Assembly: GCF_003096675.1 (NCBI RefSeq)
Contig: NZ_QEKW01000002.1
Coordinates: forward strand, 372,001 to 436,000
Reading direction: 5' to 3'
Length of the DNA: 64,000 nt
DNA from: Actinomycetospora cinnamomea
GTDB taxonomy: Bacteria; Actinomycetota; Actinomycetes; Mycobacteriales; Pseudonocardiaceae
A model generated the notes under the pieces. It saw only the letters and a list, made by a program, of their open reading frames with translations. It was not told the DNA's origin and did not search any database. This document shows positions 56,007 through 63,793 of the stretch, piece by piece. Both the position numbers and the translations under genes were made by a program. Every line of letters begins with the position of its first letter. The first letter of the stretch is position 1.

Positions 56007-56417
56007 GTGAAGGTGGACACCATCGAGATCCGGCCCATCGGGCACGTCGAGTCGACCCTGACCGACCTCGCCGACGCCCCGAAGCAGGCGGACGAGGGTG
56101 CTCCCGAGGCCTGGCTCGTCCTGCACGACGGCCTGCAGGCGGCGGCGGCCGACATCCACCCCGGCGACGGGCTCGTGGTGGTCACGTGGCTGCACGAGGC
56201 GGACCGCGACGTCCTCGTCGTCCACCCGCGCAGCGACACCACCCGTCCGCTCACCGGGGTCTTCAGCACCCGCTCCCCGGCGCGACCGAACCCGCTGGGC
56301 CTGCACCCCGTCACCGTGCTCGGGGTCGACGGCCTGCGCATCCACGTCGACGCCCTCGAGGCGGTCGACGGCACGCCGATCGTCGACGTCAAGTCCGACC
56401 TCGGCCGGGACCGCTGA
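56007..56417 (+). CDS. TrmO-family tRNA (N6-threonylcarbamoyladenosine37-N6)-methyltransferase
   Basis: A 136-residue protein of the TrmO/UPF0066 family, which in E. coli methylates t6A37 in tRNA using SAM. It has IRPIGHVES, the signature FSTRSPARPNPLGLHPVTVL, and DGTPIVDVKSDL near the end. It is shorter than E. coli TrmO (235), consisting of the core beta-barrel only, as in many actinobacterial members. GTG 56007 or GTG 56013 could be the start. A 17-bp-stem terminator follows immediately. Confidence 0.82.
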   Translation: MKVDTIEIRPIGHVESTLTDLADAPKQADEGAPEAWLVLHDGLQAAAADIHPGDGLVVVTWLHEADRDVLVVHPRSDTTRPLTGVFSTRSPARPNPLGLHPVTVLGVDGLRIHVDALEAVDGTPIVDVKSDLGRDR

Positions 56418-56460: not shown

Positions 56461-57072
56461 TCAGATCCTCTGCACCTCGACGAGGTCGGCGTAGACGATC
56501 ACGTTGGAGAGGTACGACCGGGCACCCCGGTCGAAGTCCCCGCCGCAGGTGATGAGACGCAGCTGCGGGTTGGCCGTGTCGTTGTAGACGGCGTCGGTCG
56601 GGAAGGAGTCCTTCGGGATCGTCTCCACCCGCGAGACCTCGAACACCGCGCGCTGACCGTCGACGCGGTCGACGAACACCTGGGCGCCGGCGACCACGTC
56701 CTTCAGGTTGGCGAAGATGCCCGGTTGCCCGCCCCCGTTGACGTGCCCCAGGACGATGCTCGGCCCGATCTCGCCCGGGGTCGGGCTCTGGTCGAACCAG
56801 GACGCCTGCATCGGCTGGAAGACCGGCGGGACCTCGAGGCTGCCGTTCTCCTGGAGCCCGGTCGGGACGAGGCTCGACTCCGCCGAGATCGACGGCACCG
56901 TGACCCGGCTCGGGGCCGACGCGGCCAGCGGCTCCGGGGACGTGAACGCGGACGGACCCGATCCCATCCCGGCGACCAGGGCCAGGCCGACCAGGACCAC
57001 GATCAGTCCGATCGAGATGTTCGTCATCGAGATCCCGGACTTCTGGTCCGGGCTCTTGTCGGTGATGGCCAT
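56461..57072 (-). CDS. Class F sortase
   Basis: A 203-residue sortase. One N-terminal membrane helix (about 17-37, ISIGLIVVLVGLALVAGM) anchors it with the catalytic domain outside. The triad residues are H110 (VLGHVNGGG), C176 (LITCGGDFD) and R185 (GARSYLSNVIVYA). VPSISAESSLVPTGL opens the beta-barrel as in class F enzymes. It would cleave a sorting motif and join the protein to the cell wall. It is the last gene of a four-gene set with the repeat protein 11 bases upstream. No LPXTG-type substrate is visible in the window. Confidence 0.88.
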   Translation of the reverse strand: MAITDKSPDQKSGISMTNISIGLIVVLVGLALVAGMGSGPSAFTSPEPLAASAPSRVTVPSISAESSLVPTGLQENGSLEVPPVFQPMQASWFDQSPTPGEIGPSIVLGHVNGGGQPGIFANLKDVVAGAQVFVDRVDGQRAVFEVSRVETIPKDSFPTDAVYNDTANPQLRLITCGGDFDRGARSYLSNVIVYADLVEVQRI

Positions 57073-57083
57073 CGCCGGCTCGC

Positions 57084-57908
57084 TCAGTTCCCCGTGTCGA
57101 CGCCGCCGACCGGCACGCGCTTCACCTGCGTCGCGTACACCTCACCGACGGGGCGGTAGTCGTACCAGTAGTGGTGCACCGAGCTGTTGTAGTAGCACAC
57201 GGTGCGGTCGTATCCGTGGTGGCCGTAACCGTGACCGCGGCGGTAATCGTAGCCGGAGTCGTAGTTGTCGCCCTCGTCCGTGGTCGTGAGGGTGGCTTCG
57301 CTGCGGTCCAGATCGGAGTCGACGTTCGAGCCCGAGTCGGTGCCCGAGCCCGAGTCGGTGCCCGAGCCCGAGTCGGTGCCGGAGCCCGAATCAGTGCCCG
57401 GGGCCGGCACGCTCGCGCGGAGCCCCAACGTGCCGGCGGGGGCCACCGAGGGAACGCCGCCGCCAACGGTTACCGACTCATCCCCACCCATGCCTCCAGA
57501 GGTGTCGGACGACTCGGATGTTTCTGTGAGTTCGGGTGTTTCGGTGAGTTCGGGTGTTTCGGTGAGTTCGGGTGTTTCTGTGAGTTCGGGTGTTTCGGTG
57601 AGTTCGGGTGTTTCGGTGAGGCCGGGCGTTTCGGTGAGGCCGGGGATCTCGGTGAGACCGGGGATCTCGGTGAGACCAGGGATCTCGGTGAGGCCTGGGA
57701 TACCGGTGCTGTCGGTCGAGCCGTCCGTGCTGCTGTCGGTGCGGCTATCGCTGCTGCCGTGGTGGCGCGGGTGGTAGTGGGTCGACACTTCGACGCAGTT
57801 GCTGTTCGTGTACGACGTCGCCGAGGCCGAGCCGACACCGAGCGATCCGATGAGCAGCACGCCCGCCCCCAGCACCAGGGCCCGGTGTCCCATCCCCTGA
57901 CTTGTCAT
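57084..57908 (-). CDS. Secreted low-complexity protein with Glu-rich hexapeptide repeats
   Basis: A 274-residue exported protein. A signal peptide (1-30, MGHRALVLGAGVLLIGSLGV, ending ASA) leads to a short His/Ser/Asp stretch. Ten or more 6-residue repeats follow at about 68-130, IPGLTE at first and then TPELTE, each with one or two Glu. A four-fold GTDSGS repeat (about 170-195) and a Tyr/His/Asp-rich C-terminal domain with two Cys (C37 and a later CYYN) come next. No LPXTG motif or C-terminal membrane anchor is present. Start and stop overlap its neighbours. It is probably a surface protein handled by the sortase or the HTTM protein. Confidence 0.75.
   Translation of the reverse strand: MTSQGMGHRALVLGAGVLLIGSLGVGSASATSYTNSNCVEVSTHYHPRHHGSSDSRTDSSTDGSTDSTGIPGLTEIPGLTEIPGLTEIPGLTETPGLTETPELTETPELTETPELTETPELTETPELTETSESSDTSGGMGGDESVTVGGGVPSVAPAGTLGLRASVPAPGTDSGSGTDSGSGTDSGSGTDSGSNVDSDLDRSEATLTTTDEGDNYDSGYDYRRGHGYGHHGYDRTVCYYNSSVHHYWYDYRPVGEVYATQVKRVPVGGVDTGN
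57331..57402. repeat. Minisatellite: four 18-bp units (GTDSGS coding)
   Basis: Four tandem copies of CCCGAGTCGGTGCCCGAG, the first two identical and the others with one to four changes, code for the GTDSGS repeat of the secreted protein. Confidence 0.9.
57519..57698. repeat. Minisatellite: ten 18-bp units (Glu hexapeptide coding)
   Basis: Ten tandem 18-bp units run without a break, e.g. TGTTTCGGTGAGTTCGGG, grading into GATCTCGGTGAGACCGGG at the 5' end of the gene. Several units are identical, implying recent expansion. Copy number is likely variable between strains. Confidence 0.92.
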
Positions 57909-59134
57909 GTCCTCTCTCCGTTCCCGGCTCGTGCCGGCCCGTTCCCTGCGCTGACCGCCGCCCCGTCGACGTTGTCCGTGTCGACCATCACCCGTTCGTT
58001 GTTACTCGCGGGGAGCACCGTGATGAAAGCGTTAGGTCCGCTGCCGGGCAGGCCGTTGGGCTCACCGTCGGACTGAGGCTCCGCGCGACCCTCGGCGCTC
58101 ACGCCGATCCCCTGCGCGGCCTCGGCGACAGGTTGCGACTCGGCGTCCACGCACTCCCGGGCCGCCGGGGTCGGCCGGTCCTCGGGTTCGGGCCCCTCCT
58201 CGCTCGCCGGCGTCCTCGTCGGGCGCCGCCGTCCTCGGCACCCGACCCGGTCGCGGACCCACCGCAGGACCTGCTCGGCACGGTCGGGCGGGAGGAACGC
58301 CAGGTAGAGGGTCACGATCGTGAGGCTGAAGAAGCCGACGGCGAGGGTGATCTCGATCGAGAGGTGGAGGAGCACGCCGAGGGCGAGAACCCAGGGCCGG
58401 GCCGCCCGATTCCAGACGAGGACGCCGATCGCGAGCTCCGCGGCGAGCGTTCCGTAGGTCGCCAGCTCGGCGAGCAGCGGCGAGCCGGTGACGAACGACG
58501 GCACCGGGACGCGGCTGACCTCGCCGATGCGCACCGCGTACGAGACCGCGGTCCCGTCGCGCCAGCGCGCGCCGCCCGCCTTCTCCCACACGGTGGAGAC
58601 GTAGATGACACTGAGCTGGATCTGCGCGAGGCGCAGGGCCCACGGCGCACGACGGGGAAAGCTCCACAGGTGCTCGGGATCGGCGCGCCACCGGTCCACC
58701 GACGCCGCGGACCCCGCTGGCATGAGGAGCACGTAGAAGGCGACGAGCCGCAGCAGGCCGTCTCCCGCGTTGAAGGCGAGCGGCGCCGAGCGGGTCACCG
58801 ACATGATCACGACGAAGACGACCAGAGCCGCCACGCGCGTGCGGAACCCGACCGTGAGCGCGACCGCGCCGAGCACGCCCGCCAGCCACAGCACCCAGAT
58901 CAGCGGTGAGCCCTGGACAAGGCTGAAGAGCGTCCAGCCGCCGACGGGCAGCTCGCGCACCGGGATAGCGCCGTCGCGGCCGAAGAACGGGTCCAGGACG
59001 GGGACGAGCGAGAGCATCCACACCGTCGTCACGACCCCGAAAGCGATGCGGAGGACCTCCACCGGGGCCGTCGACTGCGGGGCGAACCAAAACCGGTCCC
59101 AGCCGTCGCGGAGCCGGACCAATGACGCGGTCAT
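57905..59134 (-). CDS. HTTM-domain membrane protein (vitamin-K gamma-carboxylase-like)
   Basis: A 409-residue membrane protein with the horizontally transferred transmembrane (HTTM) domain, related to the N-terminal membrane part of vitamin-K-dependent gamma-glutamyl carboxylase. It has VEVLRIAFGVVTTVWML, FNAGDGLLRLVAFYVLLMPAG and AQIQLSVIYVSTVWEKAGGARWRDG. Lys185 aligns by eye with the catalytic Lys region of GGCX, while the GGCX catalytic His has no clear partner (Asp125 nearby). The C-terminal about 105 residues are a disordered acidic/Pro tail. ATGA overlaps join it to both neighbours. Confidence 0.82.
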   Translation of the reverse strand: MTASLVRLRDGWDRFWFAPQSTAPVEVLRIAFGVVTTVWMLSLVPVLDPFFGRDGAIPVRELPVGGWTLFSLVQGSPLIWVLWLAGVLGAVALTVGFRTRVAALVVFVVIMSVTRSAPLAFNAGDGLLRLVAFYVLLMPAGSAASVDRWRADPEHLWSFPRRAPWALRLAQIQLSVIYVSTVWEKAGGARWRDGTAVSYAVRIGEVSRVPVPSFVTGSPLLAELATYGTLAAELAIGVLVWNRAARPWVLALGVLLHLSIEITLAVGFFSLTIVTLYLAFLPPDRAEQVLRWVRDRVGCRGRRRPTRTPASEEGPEPEDRPTPAARECVDAESQPVAEAAQGIGVSAEGRAEPQSDGEPNGLPGSGPNAFITVLPASNNERVMVDTDNVDGAAVSAGNGPARAGNGERT

Positions 59135-59706
59135 CGCTGGGCGACCGGCGTCGTGAAGAACGGGATCTCGCGCCCGGAGCCCGCGTCGGGTGCGGGTCCT
59201 CCCGGTGGGGCGTTGGGCCGGACGGCGCGCACCAGAGTGACGCGCACCGGCCGGTGGCCCGCGGCGCGGTCCCGGTCGGCGACCCAGCCGGCGAAGGCCG
59301 CGCGCTCCCGCTCGGCGGAGCGCTTCTTCCACATCTGCTCGCCGTACTTGCGCCAGCGGTAGTCCCAGTACTCGGTGAGCCCGTTCCCGCCGTGCAGCGG
59401 GTAGACGCCGACGGTCCCGTCCGCGCGCTCGACGCGCGCGACGACCTCGTTCGTCACGCGAGGCGGACTGGGCGCGAACACACCCCACGCCTGGTCGAGC
59501 CCGGTGGCGAGGAGGTAGGGGCGCGTCAGGTCGAGGAGGCCGTCCTTGATCACCCCTCTTGGGGCGGTGCTGGCGAGCATCCCCACCAGGGTCAGGAGGA
59601 TGAGCGCCGTGATCCCGAGCCGCCTGCCCCGGCTCATCGAGGCCGGCTCGTCCTGCTCAGCACGCGCCGGTCCGGAGGTGTCCGTCTCCCGGGTCGTCGT
59701 CCCCAT
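59131..59706 (-). CDS. DUF5819-like membrane-anchored protein
   Basis: A 191-residue protein. A Thr/Glu-rich cytoplasmic N-terminus (1-30) is followed by one membrane helix (about 35-55, LGITALILLTLVGMLAST) and an outside domain with the pattern WGVFAPSPPRVTNEVVARVE, then YWDYRWRKYGEQMWKKR. This fits DUF5819, which I recall as a regular neighbour of HTTM proteins. ATG 59706 is preferred to the distant 59778. Its stop overlaps the HTTM start, so the pair is coupled and may form a complex. Confidence 0.72.
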   Translation of the reverse strand: MGTTTRETDTSGPARAEQDEPASMSRGRRLGITALILLTLVGMLASTAPRGVIKDGLLDLTRPYLLATGLDQAWGVFAPSPPRVTNEVVARVERADGTVGVYPLHGGNGLTEYWDYRWRKYGEQMWKKRSAERERAAFAGWVADRDRAAGHRPVRVTLVRAVRPNAPPGGPAPDAGSGREIPFFTTPVAQR

Positions 59707-59808: not shown

Positions 59809-60492
59809 TCACGGCTCGAACCGGTACCCCCGCGCGGCTTCCGTCACCAGGTGACGCGGGTGGGACGGGTCGGGCTCGAGCTTGCGACGCAGGTGGGCGA
59901 GGTAGACGCGCAGGTAGTGGCCCTCGGTGCCGTAGGACGGGCCCCAGACCTCGCGCAGGATCTGCTGCTGGGTGACGAGCATCCCCGGGTGACGGGCCAG
60001 GTGCTCCAGCACGCCCCACTCGGTGGGGCTCAGGTGCACCTCCGCGCCGTCGCGCACGACCTTCTTGGCGACGAGGTCGACGGTGAAGCTCGCCGTCTCG
60101 ACCACCGGCGTCCCCTCGGGGACCACGACGGCGGCGCGGCGGACCGCGGCGCGCAGGCGCGCGAGCAGCTCGGGGACGCCGAAGGGCTTGGTCACGTAGT
60201 CGTCGGCGCCGGCGTCCAGCGCGGCGATCTTGTCGGCGGAGTCGGTGCGCGCCGAGAGCACGATGACCGGCACCGAGCTCCAGCCCCGCAGGCCGGCGAG
60301 CACGTCGAGGCCGGGCATGTCCGGCAGCCCGAGGTCGAGCACGACGACGTCGGGCGGCGGGTGGTCGGCGCTCGCGCGCAGGGCGGCGGCGCCGTCGGCG
60401 GCGAGCACGACGGTGTGGCCGTGCGCGGCGAGGTTGATCCGCAGCGTGCGGCGCAGGTGGGGATCGTCGTCGACGACGAGGACGCGGCTCAC
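59809..60492 (-). CDS. kdpE: Response regulator KdpE
   Basis: A 227-residue OmpR-type regulator that activates the potassium-pump operon. The receiver has acidic residues D8-D10, phosphoacceptor D53 (VVVLDLGLPD) and a conserved Lys in DDYVTKPFGV. The C-terminal winged helix includes LSPTEWGVLEHLARHPGMLVTQQQIL and HYLRVYLAHLRRKLEPD, characteristic of KdpE. GTG 60492 overlaps the kdpD stop. It is the last gene of the kdp set. Confidence 0.93.
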   Translation of the reverse strand: MSRVLVVDDDPHLRRTLRINLAAHGHTVVLAADGAAALRASADHPPPDVVVLDLGLPDMPGLDVLAGLRGWSSVPVIVLSARTDSADKIAALDAGADDYVTKPFGVPELLARLRAAVRRAAVVVPEGTPVVETASFTVDLVAKKVVRDGAEVHLSPTEWGVLEHLARHPGMLVTQQQILREVWGPSYGTEGHYLRVYLAHLRRKLEPDPSHPRHLVTEAARGYRFEP

Positions 60493-63089
60493 GGGACCAG
60501 CGAGTCGGGTCGGGTTCCCCGATCGCCGTGCTCGGCTGACTGCGTGTCCCGCAGCGGGCGGGAGGCCGCCGGCAGCGACAGCGCCATCGTCAGCCCGCCG
60601 CCCGGGGTGTCCTCGGCGTCGAGCGTGCCGCCCATCGCCTCGGCGAAGCCGCGCGCGACGTGCAGCCCGAGGCCCACGCCGGTGGCGCGGCGGCGGTCGC
60701 CGAGCTGCTGGAACGGGGTGAACAGGCCGTCGAGCTGCTTGCGGGGCACACCCGGTCCGCGGTCGACGACGCGCAGCTCGACGCGGTCGGCGTAGGCGCT
60801 GGCGCGCACCGCGACCGTGCCGTCCCCGCCGTGGCGCAGCGCGTTGTCGACGAGGTTGGCGACGACCCGCTCGGCGAGTCCGGGGTCGGCGCGCACGTCG
60901 GGCAGGTCCTCGGCCACGTCGACGACCATGCGATCGCCGTCGGCGGACGACAGCCCCGTCAGGGACGCCGCGACGATCCCGTCGAGCCCCACCGGGGCGG
61001 CGACGGGCGTGACCGCGCCCGCGGCCAGGCGCGAGGAGTCGAGCAGGTTGTCGACGAGACCGGTGAGGCGGTCGGCGGACTCCTCGACCGTGGCGAGCAG
61101 TTCCTGGCGGTCGGCGGTGGACATGCGCAGCACGGGGTCGCGCAAGCTGCCGGCCGCCGCCTTGATCGCGGTCAGCGGCGTGCGCAGGTCGTGCCCGACG
61201 GCGGAGAGCAGCGCGGTGCGCAGGTCCGCGGCGTCCGCGCGGCGCTGGGCGTCGGTGGCCTGGGCGGCCATGCGGCGGTTGCGCAGCGCCAGCAGCGCCT
61301 GCCCGCTGACCGCGGAGAACAGCGCGCGCTCGCTGGCGGTGAGCGCGCGGCCGGTGCCGACGAGGTGCACGCCCTCGTCGATCTCGACGTCGGCGTCGGC
61401 GTCGGCAGGCCTGGCGCAGGGGTTGCCACCGGTGCACGCGGTGACCTCCCAGGTCGCCTGCGGACCGCGCTCGAGCAGGGCCACCGCGGAGAGCCCGAAC
61501 GCCTCCCGGACGCGTTCGAGCAGCTTGGGCAGCGGGTCCGAGCGCGAGAGGACGACGCGGGCGAACGACGCGAGCAGCGTCGCCTCCGTGCGGGCCTGGG
61601 CGGCCTGGGCTGCGCGGCGGTCGGCGCGGTCGACGACAGCGGCGACGAGCAGGGCGACGACCACCATCGCGACGATGGCGAACGCGTTCTGCGGTTCGGC
61701 GATCGTGAACGTGTGGAGCGGCGGGGTGAGGAAGACGTTGAGCAGCAGGCCGCCGCCGATCGCGGCGACCAGGGCCGGCGCGAGGCCACCGATCATCGCC
61801 GTGACGACCGTGGCCAGGAGGAACAGCACGACGTCGGTCGACAGGTCGACCTCCTCGCGCAATCCCACACCGATCAGCGTCGCCAGCACCGGCAGCAGCA
61901 CCGCCGCGGGCCACCCGTAGCGGTGGCGCCGCGCGGGCAGCGCGAGCCGCAGTCGCCGTCGTCGCCCCTCGCCCGCCTCGGTGTGGCTGACGAGGTGCAC
62001 GTCGATCGAGCCCGACTCGGCGATGGTCCGGGCGCCGATCCCGGGGTCGACCAAGCGCGCCCAGCGGGAGCGCCGCGACGTCCCGAGCACGAGCTGGGTG
62101 GCGTTGGCCGCACGGGCGAACTCGAGCAGGGCCGCCGGCACGTCGTCACCCACGACGGTGTGGAACGACGCGCCGACGTCCTCGGCGAGCCGACGCAGGC
62201 CCGGCCCGCTGGTGCCGGGCGGACCGGTGCCCGCCAGCCCGTCGCTGCGCAGCACGTGCACGCACAGCAGGTCGGCCGACCCGGCACGACGCGCGATCCG
62301 CGCGGCCCGACGCATCACGGTTGCGCTCTCCGGCCCGCCGGTGACGGCGACGACGACGCGCTCGCGCGCCTCCCACACCTCGGAGATGGCCTCCCGGCTG
62401 CGGTAGCGCTGCAGCGCGACGTCGACCTGGTCGGCGACCCAGAGCAGCGCGAGCTCGCGCAACGCGATGAGGTTGCCGGTGCGGAAGTAGTGGGCCAGCG
62501 AGGCGTCGATCTTCTCGGGCCGGTAGATGTTCCCGTGGGCCATGCGCCGGCGCAGCGCCTCGGGGGTGATGTCGACCAGCTCGATCTGGTCCGCCGCGCG
62601 CACCACGGCGTCCGGGATCGTCTCGCGCTGGCGCACCCCGGTGATGCGCTCGACGACGTCGCCGAGCGACTCGAGGTGCTGCACGTTCACCGTCGAGATC
62701 ACGTCGATCCCGGCGGCGAGCAGGTCCTCGACGTCCTCCCAGCGCTTGGCGTGCCGCGAGCCGGGCGCGCAGGAGTGCGCGAGCTCGTCGACGACGCAGA
62801 CCTCGGGCGCCCGGGCGAGCACGGCGTCGACGTCGAGCTCGGTGAGCTCCGTGCCGCGGTGATCGAGGACCTTGCGGGGCAGCACCTCGAGGCCCTCGAG
62901 CAGAGCGGCGGTCCGCGCCCGCCCGTGGGTCTCGACGAGCCCGACGACGACGTCCGTGCCGCGTTCGAGCCGGCGGCGGGCCTCGTTCAGCGCGGCGTAG
63001 GTCTTGCCGACCCCGGGGGCGGCACCGAGGTGGATGCGCAGTTCACCGCGGCGCGGGGCGTCCTGCGAGGTCACCTCCTCATCGTGCAC
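60489..63089 (-). CDS. kdpD: Potassium sensor kinase KdpD
   Basis: An 866-residue sensor kinase. The N-terminal KdpD domain (about 10-225) carries a Walker A-like GAAPGVGKTY and DELAHSCAPGSRHAKRW, followed by a USP-like domain (about 245-370). Four helices (about 390-510), a GAF-like region, and the kinase follow: H box VGHDLRTPLTAIK, N box VANLVDNALRHG, G boxes RGPGVPRKQL and GVGLGLHVARGFAEAMGG. The start is uncertain among GTG 63095, 63089 (best ribosome-binding site, GAGGA) and 63074. It overlaps kdpC upstream and kdpE downstream. Confidence 0.94.
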   Translation of the reverse strand: MHDEEVTSQDAPRRGELRIHLGAAPGVGKTYAALNEARRRLERGTDVVVGLVETHGRARTAALLEGLEVLPRKVLDHRGTELTELDVDAVLARAPEVCVVDELAHSCAPGSRHAKRWEDVEDLLAAGIDVISTVNVQHLESLGDVVERITGVRQRETIPDAVVRAADQIELVDITPEALRRRMAHGNIYRPEKIDASLAHYFRTGNLIALRELALLWVADQVDVALQRYRSREAISEVWEARERVVVAVTGGPESATVMRRAARIARRAGSADLLCVHVLRSDGLAGTGPPGTSGPGLRRLAEDVGASFHTVVGDDVPAALLEFARAANATQLVLGTSRRSRWARLVDPGIGARTIAESGSIDVHLVSHTEAGEGRRRRLRLALPARRHRYGWPAAVLLPVLATLIGVGLREEVDLSTDVVLFLLATVVTAMIGGLAPALVAAIGGGLLLNVFLTPPLHTFTIAEPQNAFAIVAMVVVALLVAAVVDRADRRAAQAAQARTEATLLASFARVVLSRSDPLPKLLERVREAFGLSAVALLERGPQATWEVTACTGGNPCARPADADADVEIDEGVHLVGTGRALTASERALFSAVSGQALLALRNRRMAAQATDAQRRADAADLRTALLSAVGHDLRTPLTAIKAAAGSLRDPVLRMSTADRQELLATVEESADRLTGLVDNLLDSSRLAAGAVTPVAAPVGLDGIVAASLTGLSSADGDRMVVDVAEDLPDVRADPGLAERVVANLVDNALRHGGDGTVAVRASAYADRVELRVVDRGPGVPRKQLDGLFTPFQQLGDRRRATGVGLGLHVARGFAEAMGGTLDAEDTPGGGLTMALSLPAASRPLRDTQSAEHGDRGTRPDSLVP

Positions 63090-63793
63090 CCGCACTCCTC
63101 ACCGACCCCCGGAGCCGTTGGGGTCAGGGCCGAGACGAGGGCCGCGTTCAGCTCCGGCACGGTCACGCGCGGCTCGCCGAGCACGCCGAGCACGCGCCCG
63201 TCGGTGGCGTCGGCGACCAGCGCCCGGACGCGGTCCTCACCGAGCCCGGACACGCGGGCGACGCGGGGCACCTGCAGCGCCGCGTACTCCAGGCCGATGT
63301 GCGGGTCGAGACCGGAGGCCGAGGCGGTGAGCGCGTCGGGCGGGACGGCGGCGGGGTCGATCCCCTCGCGGGCCGCGATCGCGGCGCGGCGCTCCGCCAC
63401 GGCGGCGCCCAGGTCCTCGGCGTCGCCGCCGAGGTTGGAGCCGCCCGAGGTGGTGGCGTCGGCGGGGCCGAGGCCCGGCGCCGGGACCGATCCGGGGTCG
63501 TCGGGTGCCGACGCCGACGGCCGGGTGTGGAACCACGGGTCGGCGGCGGGATCCGCCGGGACGGGGTCGATGCCGATCAGGCTCGAGCCGCCGCTCGGCA
63601 TCACCGAGCCCTCGGCGTTCCCGTGCAGTCCCGGGAGCCGGGAGAGGCCCCAGATCGCGGCGGGGTAGACGACGCCGAGCAGTACGGTGAGCACGAGCAG
63701 GACCCGGATCGCGGCGCCCGCCTGGCGCCGCAGCTGGGCACCGGTGACGGCGGAGGTCCCGGACTCGGTGTCGGGTTCGAGGAGGGTGGTCAC
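63071..63793 (-). CDS. kdpC: Potassium-transporting ATPase subunit KdpC
   Basis: A 240-residue KdpC. One N-terminal helix (about 28-50, AIRVLLVLTVLLGVVYPAAIWGL) is followed by an outside domain with GSSLIGIDPV, WFHTRPSAS, SGGSNLGG and the signature ASASGLDPHIGLEYAALQVPRVAR. It assists K+ binding in the KdpFABC pump. It is about 45 residues longer than E. coli KdpC owing to inserts. GTG 63793 lies five bases after the kdpB stop. Confidence 0.94.
   Translation of the reverse strand: MTTLLEPDTESGTSAVTGAQLRRQAGAAIRVLLVLTVLLGVVYPAAIWGLSRLPGLHGNAEGSVMPSGGSSLIGIDPVPADPAADPWFHTRPSASAPDDPGSVPAPGLGPADATTSGGSNLGGDAEDLGAAVAERRAAIAAREGIDPAAVPPDALTASASGLDPHIGLEYAALQVPRVARVSGLGEDRVRALVADATDGRVLGVLGEPRVTVPELNAALVSALTPTAPGVGEECGCTMRR

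Follow-up and report, generated by a model that had tools for sequence, protein, structure and literature searches.

A DUF5819-HTTM membrane pair encoded with a repeat protein and a class F sortase in Actinomycetospora cinnamomea

The four-gene unit and its conservation in the genus

The stretch of DNA analysed here, called the window throughout, comprises 64,000 nucleotides of Actinomycetospora cinnamomea (contig NZ_QEKW01000002.1, positions 372,001 to 436,000) and carries four neighbouring minus-strand genes that encode a DUF5819-like protein, an HTTM protein, a secreted repeat protein and a class F sortase. The DUF5819-like protein P0002 (191 amino acids [aa]; 59706..59131) is followed directly by the HTTM protein P0001 (409 aa; 59134..57905), and the two genes overlap in an ATGA (59134/59131). 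A second ATGA overlap (57908/57905) joins the HTTM gene to that of the repeat protein P0003 (274 aa; 57908..57084), the likely sortase substrate, and an 11-bp gap (57083..57073) precedes the gene of the class F sortase P0004 (203 aa; 57072..56461). This arrangement, with its two overlaps and its gap, had been described in an earlier sequence-only reading of the window and was confirmed on the letters.

The unit is conserved within the genus. When named genomes were scanned with P0001, six loci were obtained, four in Actinomycetospora (L014-L017; 70 to 85% identity) and two in planctomycete bins (L018 and L019; 29%), and DUF5819 matches were found at 20 places in 17 of the 18 genomes of the genus. 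All 20 places were inspected; one lies in the window, three had come up in the sortase survey, and the other 16 were added for this purpose. The complete unit of DUF5819, HTTM, a GVDTG-type protein and a class F sortase was present at 15 of them. A survey of how often the four families occur together had been proposed as a check on the cluster, and within the genus its outcome favours the unit. The four genes are consecutive in 14 of the 15 complete units, the exception being L211 (the same locus as L017), where a transferase-like gene stands between the HTTM gene and that of the GVDTG-type tail protein. Past its sorting motif, which is described below, the tail protein ends after one residue in 8 of the 15 units and after 5 to 6 residues in the other 7, and this second kind is distant: compared with L174, L177 and L181, P0002 is 36 to 37% identical and P0004 60 to 63% identical.

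At the five remaining places (L213, L215, L218, L219 and L222, the last at a contig end), the unit is incomplete. At L213:6793-7953 (minus strand), in an 84%-complete genome, DUF5819 and the sortase lie in one frame and the HTTM gene was not found, which reflects either a deletion or a misassembly. A multi-helix putative glycosyltransferase was observed near the pair of DUF5819 and HTTM genes at L017:5927-7648 and L079:3370-5118 and also at L177, L181, L217 and L220; its match to LA_3751/LA_3752 of NCBIfam is weak (19.9 bits against a cut-off of 200), and it has no Pfam match. The unit of the window is flanked upstream by minus-strand genes (59809-63095) that we take to be kdpE/kdpD-like and downstream by a plus-strand gene (56007-56417), presumably for a TrmO-like methyltransferase, both named from their translations. 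A search of the open-licence literature gave no description of this module, nor any paper joining HTTM to SdpB or SdpB to gamma-glutamyl carboxylase, or treating DUF5819.

The repeat protein and its sorting signal

P0003 begins with a signal peptide (residues 1-30; 57819..57908, minus strand like all features of the unit), with cleavage after ASA as judged by inspection, and carries two repeats. The first, at residues ~69-132 (57513..57704), is made up of Glu-bearing hexapeptides. About ten of these had been claimed, and they are real, with ten LTE[I/T] units starting at residues 73 to 127 and at most one in shuffled sequences (n = 2000). The second repeat consists of TDSGSG units at residues ~171-196 (57321..57398). 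In the relatives at L014-L017 the hexapeptides are replaced by other repeats, namely STSG, DPVTDP with SSGGGT, TTDLP, or STGITTLP. Shared by all of these relatives are Cys38, the signal peptide and a C-terminal region whose last residues read VxxVPxGGVDTGN; both Cys38 and Cys238 are invariant in the five P0003-type proteins (5/5). The lowest-entropy 50 residues contain 14 Glu in the unit of the window, 2 in that of L221 and 0 in the other 13 complete units, and because 13 of the 15 lack Glu in this segment, Glu is not a conserved target. Run against 296 genomes of the class, a profile of the last 39 residues of P0003 retrieved nothing convincing beyond its own genome, the 14 other matches having E values of 0.019 to 0.09.

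The sequence-only reading saw no sorting motif in the repeat protein. That was wrong, since P0003 ends in VPVGGVDTGN (residues 265-274; 57087..57116), in which GVDTG occupies residues 269-273 and is followed by one residue and no membrane helix. The gene next to it encodes a class F sortase by its match to NF033748 (187.8 bits; cut-off, 166), and P0004 also matches PF04203 and has H110 in GHVNG and C176 in LITC, which we take to be the catalytic His and Cys motifs of sortases. The motif was surveyed with the pattern P[x]G[AGSP][PVAI]xTG, scored within the last 60 residues of an open reading frame (ORF). Among the 30 class F sortase loci that scored best in the family, 27 had such an ORF, and in the genus so did 14 of 16 additional class F loci, giving 41 of 46 in all (L035-L064 and L171-L186). 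In the controls it was present at 2 of 63 DUF5819-HTTM loci from outside the genus and at none of 12 SdpA loci. Since the 30 family loci had been looked at once before the pattern was drawn up, the count of 14 of 16 is the less biased one. This enrichment fits an enzyme-substrate pairing and agrees with the earlier suggestion that the sortase attaches or processes the repeat protein.

A GVDTG-type signal as such is already known, since NCBIfam holds a GVDTG sorting domain, NF058571, to which the motif protein at L171 comes close (27.3 bits; cut-off, 29). P0003 itself gave no match to NF058571 up to an E value of 1. With the class F sortase and GVDTG systems covered by NF033748 and NF058571 the unit shares a class F sortase and a protein ending in GGVDTG, but P0003 differs in having neither a membrane helix nor a basic tail behind the motif. 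The absence of a helix is not confined to P0003, as 16 of the 32 family motif hits, two of them (L035 and L037) near-copies, end 4 to 15 residues past the motif and have no space for one. At 11 loci of the genus where neither DUF5819 nor HTTM lies within the 5.5 to 6 kb in view, there are 12 motif proteins with 33 to 40 residues past the motif. Judged from these sequence features, P0003 is probably a substrate of a class F sortase, its signal being of the GVDTG type but without the helix. Its own genome (G000) has ten matches to the NF033748 model at an E value of ≤0.001, of which at least 4 among the matches listed lie above the cut-off, and none of the 100 genomes searched has more class F sortase matches than this, while G464 has as many.

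The DUF5819-HTTM pair and its relatives

The human HTTM-family member, the vitamin K-dependent gamma-glutamyl carboxylase GGCX, underlies blood clotting. P0001 is assigned to the family by PF05090 (61.9 bits; cut-off, 27.7) and has a GGCX/SdpB-related membrane domain at residues ~18-284, followed by a variable polar C-terminal tail; a profile of seven HTTM proteins (A4) matches the solved human GGCX with an E value of 3.6e-6, and the GGCX structures in that search include 9wfn and 9l20. In GGCX, according to the available text of PMC12589487, K218 is the catalytic base, W223 and F299 line the quinone pocket, and N159 and H160 hold the Glu. We compared these positions in 91 HTTM frames and in 12 SdpB-type ORFs from SdpA loci (one locus was fetched twice). 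Lys185 of P0001 (codon 58580..58582), which the sequence-only reading had named for a structural comparison with GGCX, aligns with K218, and Lys is present in 89 of the 91 frames, with Arg in L079 and L116. W191 aligns with W223 (Trp in 91/91) and F269 with F299 (Phe in 88/91), and H257, kept in 88/91, lies opposite a GGCX His to which that portion of PMC12589487 gives no role.

The Glu side of the GGCX site looks different. N159 and H160 align with A123 and G124 of P0001, and F294 with L264. The sequence-only reading had cautioned that the GGCX catalytic His was not evident, and this was true, as Gly124 stands in its place (Gly124-Asp125 codons, 58760..58765). Position 124 is Gly or Ser and position 125 is Asp in all 91 frames (91/91 each), and neither Asn at 123 nor His at 124 occurs in any of the 91 frames or the 12 SdpB-type ORFs. 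The latter retain the Lys, Trp, His, Phe and G124 in 12 of 12, with Asp at position 125 in 10 and Glu in 2. By alignment, the base- and quinone-side residues of GGCX are retained and the Glu-side residues are lost in both the HTTM and the SdpB branch. P0001 also lacks the luminal propeptide-binding domain of GGCX (Y395 and R436), the match stopping at ~284 where the variable tail begins. In short, P0001 resembles GGCX in its homologous membrane domain and in the positions of K218, W223 and F299 and differs from it in lacking N159/H160 and the luminal domain, in having Leu for F294, and in that GGCX acts on a conserved Glu cluster, which the P0003-type proteins do not share. By these comparisons we class P0001 with the HTTM proteins, on a branch next to SdpB, and as neither a GGCX nor an SdpB. 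We know of no established chemistry for SdpB or for most HTTM proteins. The two HTTM proteins with Arg for Lys are sister rows on the HTTM tree, and their neighbours are acidic or TSP3-repeat proteins.

P0002 has a single N-terminal membrane helix (residues ~29-47) and then an outside domain with the core DQAWGVFAPSPP at residues 71-82. It scores below the gathering cut-off of PF19136 (16.7 against 27.1 bits), and it forms one family by profile with 12 relatives. We assign it to DUF5819 because it shares the QxWxxFxPxP core, lies next to an HTTM gene, and belongs to a profile (A3) that retrieves proteins above the PF19136 cut-off (3 of 4 proteins tested). A search of its own genome with PF19136 gave no match, which is uninformative since no control genome gave one either; the profile of the relatives, A3, worked. 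Profile-profile comparison with hhalign matched the DUF5819-like and SdpA families with a probability of 55% with 13 sequences and 48% with 64, compared with 0.1 to 1.5% for reversed and sortase profiles, and both alignments fall on the same segment, the membrane helix and QxWxFF. In two scans the SdpA profile also matched a single DUF5819 frame, at L130 in one and at L143 in the other, each at an E value of ~5e-4. Together, these matches suggest that DUF5819 and SdpA share an origin.

Processing of the secreted SdpC to SDP, the hydrophobic C-terminal region of SdpC, depends on SdpA and SdpB in Bacillus subtilis (PMC6818787). The pair studied here is like SdpA-SdpB in combining an HTTM protein with a small one-helix partner, in being encoded with a secreted protein, and in the shared Lys, Trp, His and Phe positions. 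It differs in that the partner is DUF5819-like and the neighbouring gene encodes a low-complexity protein that bears a sorting motif, P0001 scores far below the cut-off of the SdpB model TIGR04033 (46 against 178.4 bits), and the SdpB rows form a separate branch on the HTTM tree. The SdpA model TIGR04034 had no match in the genome of the window.

Beyond the genus, A3 matched in 78 of 394 genomes of the class. We examined 68 pair loci, made up of the window, L014-L017, eight found with P0001 and 55 picked from the A3 matches. A DUF5819 frame was followed by HTTM in 88 of 89 cases by script and in the last (L167), just past the distance limit, by eye. Tested by script for a secreted neighbour of low complexity, 37 of the 68 loci gave a positive result; after removal of L138 and L150 (false or unsafe) and addition by hand of L017 (one gene away), L078 and L079, the pair stands beside such a protein at 38 of 68 loci in eight family codes (f1 5/5, f5 2/2, f8 4/7, f34 19/20, f41 5/5, f50 1/1, f51 1/4 and f59 1/1). 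The test was passed by 40 of 115 adjacent ORFs, including the two later removed, compared with 44 of 1133 non-adjacent ones, and some of these 44 are readings in a wrong frame or belong to the same repeat genes.

The composition of the partners was analysed for the 38 proteins kept by the script at 35 loci, with the hand-added loci excluded. An L[PA]xTG signal near the end with a helix behind it is present in 31 of the 38, and the repeat cores include VDGTE, DADA, ADAQ, STTN, TTQ, SGTSG and others. In the low-complexity part, Glu makes up ≤2% in 14 of the 38 and ≥10% in 17 (14 of these 17 in f34), Asp makes up ≥10% in 33, and Asp and Glu together make up ≥10% in 34, the four below being L077, L081, L118 and L151. 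Such common acidic stalks leave room for an acidic side chain as a possible target in many partners, with Glu alone excluded. The f34 partner at L125 is a choice-of-anchor G surface protein (NF033766, 225.3 bits) with a long low-complexity stalk and an LPDTG signal adjoining DUF5819-HTTM; P0003, in contrast, has no such domain. On a tree of 60 pair HTTM proteins rooted with 11 SdpB rows, the partner label (scored per locus) needs at least 9 changes, in which gain and loss are not separable and which come from a quick method with weak spots. At three f8 loci, secreted repeat proteins lie directly upstream of the pair (L078:6974-11098, 1374 aa; L079:6661-9516, 951 aa; and L119, 1048 aa); their tails are hydrophobic and look amphipathic, and two of the three close with WW and a further 1 to 2 residues.

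Possible roles of the pair

The explanation that we prefer, with a confidence slightly short of even, is that an SdpAB-like membrane pair acts on the co-encoded surface protein P0003, which the sortase P0004 anchors. P0002 and P0001 would bind each other and work as a membrane complex of two proteins, in the manner of SdpA/SdpB, and the membrane core of this complex is homologous to that of vitamin K carboxylase. Outside the cytoplasm, the complex would contact and act on the low-complexity P0003 of the same operon, presumably using a reduced quinone with Lys185 as the base, and the change to P0003 would be covalent. P0004 would then join P0003 to the cell envelope at the C-terminal GGVDTG motif. 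This explanation builds on what comparison of the sequences shows: the linkage of the genes, the C-terminal sorting motif, the pairing of DUF5819 with HTTM, the signature of Lys/Trp/Phe/His/Asp, and the absence of the residues that hold Glu in GGCX. As a general rule the site changed is not the Glu of the repeats, and the pair may modify, process or merely present the surface protein. Of the sequence-only reading, which had proposed a system for surface-protein modification, the handling of surface proteins is supported by the complete unit at 15 of 20 loci of the genus and by the partners at 38 of the 68 pair loci, and the Glu repeats as substrate are not.

Several observations weigh against action on a surface protein as the common role of the pair, or against the likeness to SdpAB. 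In the genus, neither a repeat protein nor a sortase is in view beside the pairs at L215, L218 and L219, of which L219 is a contig of 3.3 kb. The 68 pair loci were picked by hand and are not a random sample, and 30 of them have no partner (f33 0/18, f10 0/3, f25 0/1, f18 0/1 and the rest in f8, f34 and f51). One HTTM frame (L169) is without a DUF5819 match. Among the partners, no residue is common to all repeats, some cores consist of Asp, Ala and Val, and in 4 of the 38 (L014, L015, L081 and L118) the lowest-entropy 60 residues contain neither Asp nor Glu. The f33 pairs (L129-L131 and L135-L149) mostly lie in a phenylacetate neighbourhood. The shared origin of DUF5819 and SdpA is suggestive and short of proof, and the profile match drops to 3.8% when the first 40 residues are removed.

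The phenylacetate setting also speaks for a possible role of the pair in the metabolism of quinones, lipids or small molecules, in which case the surface-protein neighbours would be incidental or secondary. By NCBIfam names, PaaN is matched at 15 and PaaA at 13 of the 18 f33 loci; one recurrent gene, presumably EtfB-like, lies near the pair at 16 of 20 f34 loci (L125 and L133, for example), and two of the three f10 loci have what we take to be purine genes nearby. These neighbourhoods may be due to chance, or quinone-linked metabolism may be their common theme. Incidental placement, however, leaves unexplained both the enrichment of secreted low-complexity proteins among adjacent ORFs (40/115 against 44/1133) and the 15 of 20 units in the genus, and we consider a metabolic role of this kind unlikely. 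A role without any chemical change, in which the pair holds or presents the helix-less P0003 and so keeps it at the membrane for the class F sortase, would fit the tails of the motif proteins: all 15 complete units end 1 to 6 residues past the motif, and the 12 proteins with longer tails (33 to 40 residues) come from the 11 class F loci that have no pair in 5.5 to 6 kb. Yet the 16 of 32 family motif hits that likewise leave no room for a helix have no pair in view (in loci of 2.4 to 3.5 kb), and 31 of the 38 pair partners do have a helix behind L[PA]xTG. The Lys is moreover retained in 89 of 91 HTTM frames, which suggests catalysis, and we regard mere presentation as rather improbable.

The proposal of the sequence-only reading, that the HTTM enzyme gamma-carboxylates the Glu of the hexapeptide repeats, draws on the ten Glu-bearing units of P0003, the retained counterparts of K218, W223 and F299, and the 17 of 38 partners with ≥10% Glu in their low-complexity part, 14 of which are in f34. 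One VKOR-family gene is present in the same genome on another contig, and since VKOR has other roles in actinobacteria, this says little. The Glu counts speak against the proposal, as only the unit of the window is Glu-rich among the 15, the repeat segment is free of Glu in 13 of them, and 14 of the 38 partners have ≤2%. So does the enzyme: the residues that hold Glu in GGCX (N159 and H160; PMC12589487) are Ala and Gly in P0001 and never Asn or His in the 91 frames, and the propeptide-binding domain is missing from P0001. Gamma-carboxylation of Glu as the general function was rejected as the best reading on the Glu counts and the lost Glu-holding residues, and we now think it very unlikely. 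We give still less weight to an SdpABC-like toxin system with P0003 as the precursor of a secreted antimicrobial peptide. The gene order of an A-like gene, a B-like gene and a secreted protein is that of sdpABC, and P0001 carries the SdpB-type signature, but no SdpA was matched in this genome by TIGR04034 and the C-terminus of P0003 is polar and carries a sorting motif, in contrast to the hydrophobic SDP region of SdpC (PMC6818787). This reading was set aside because P0003 lacks a hydrophobic C-terminus.

A more specific form of action on the surface protein can be imagined, and we consider it doubtful when its parts are taken jointly. In this form DUF5819-HTTM would be a bacterial, two-gene, menaquinol-using relative of vitamin K carboxylase that modifies disordered, often acidic, sortase-anchored stalks on the outside of the cell. 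DUF5819 would take over the part of the luminal domain of GGCX, the base-forming half of GGCX would be retained, and the Gly-Asp motif would replace the Glu site. The product would then be a new modification, and SdpAB would be the toxin-making branch of this enzyme class.

In conclusion, class F sortases are seen here next to proteins of the GVDTG type that lack the usual membrane helix. Such candidate class F substrates are useful because deletion of all four class F sortases in Actinoplanes missouriensis gave no phenotype, as reported in PMC13251363. In several actinobacterial families, our findings also link HTTM proteins with a constant partner and with surface proteins that are identified, and a direct test of their function in non-pathogenic strains becomes possible through this link.

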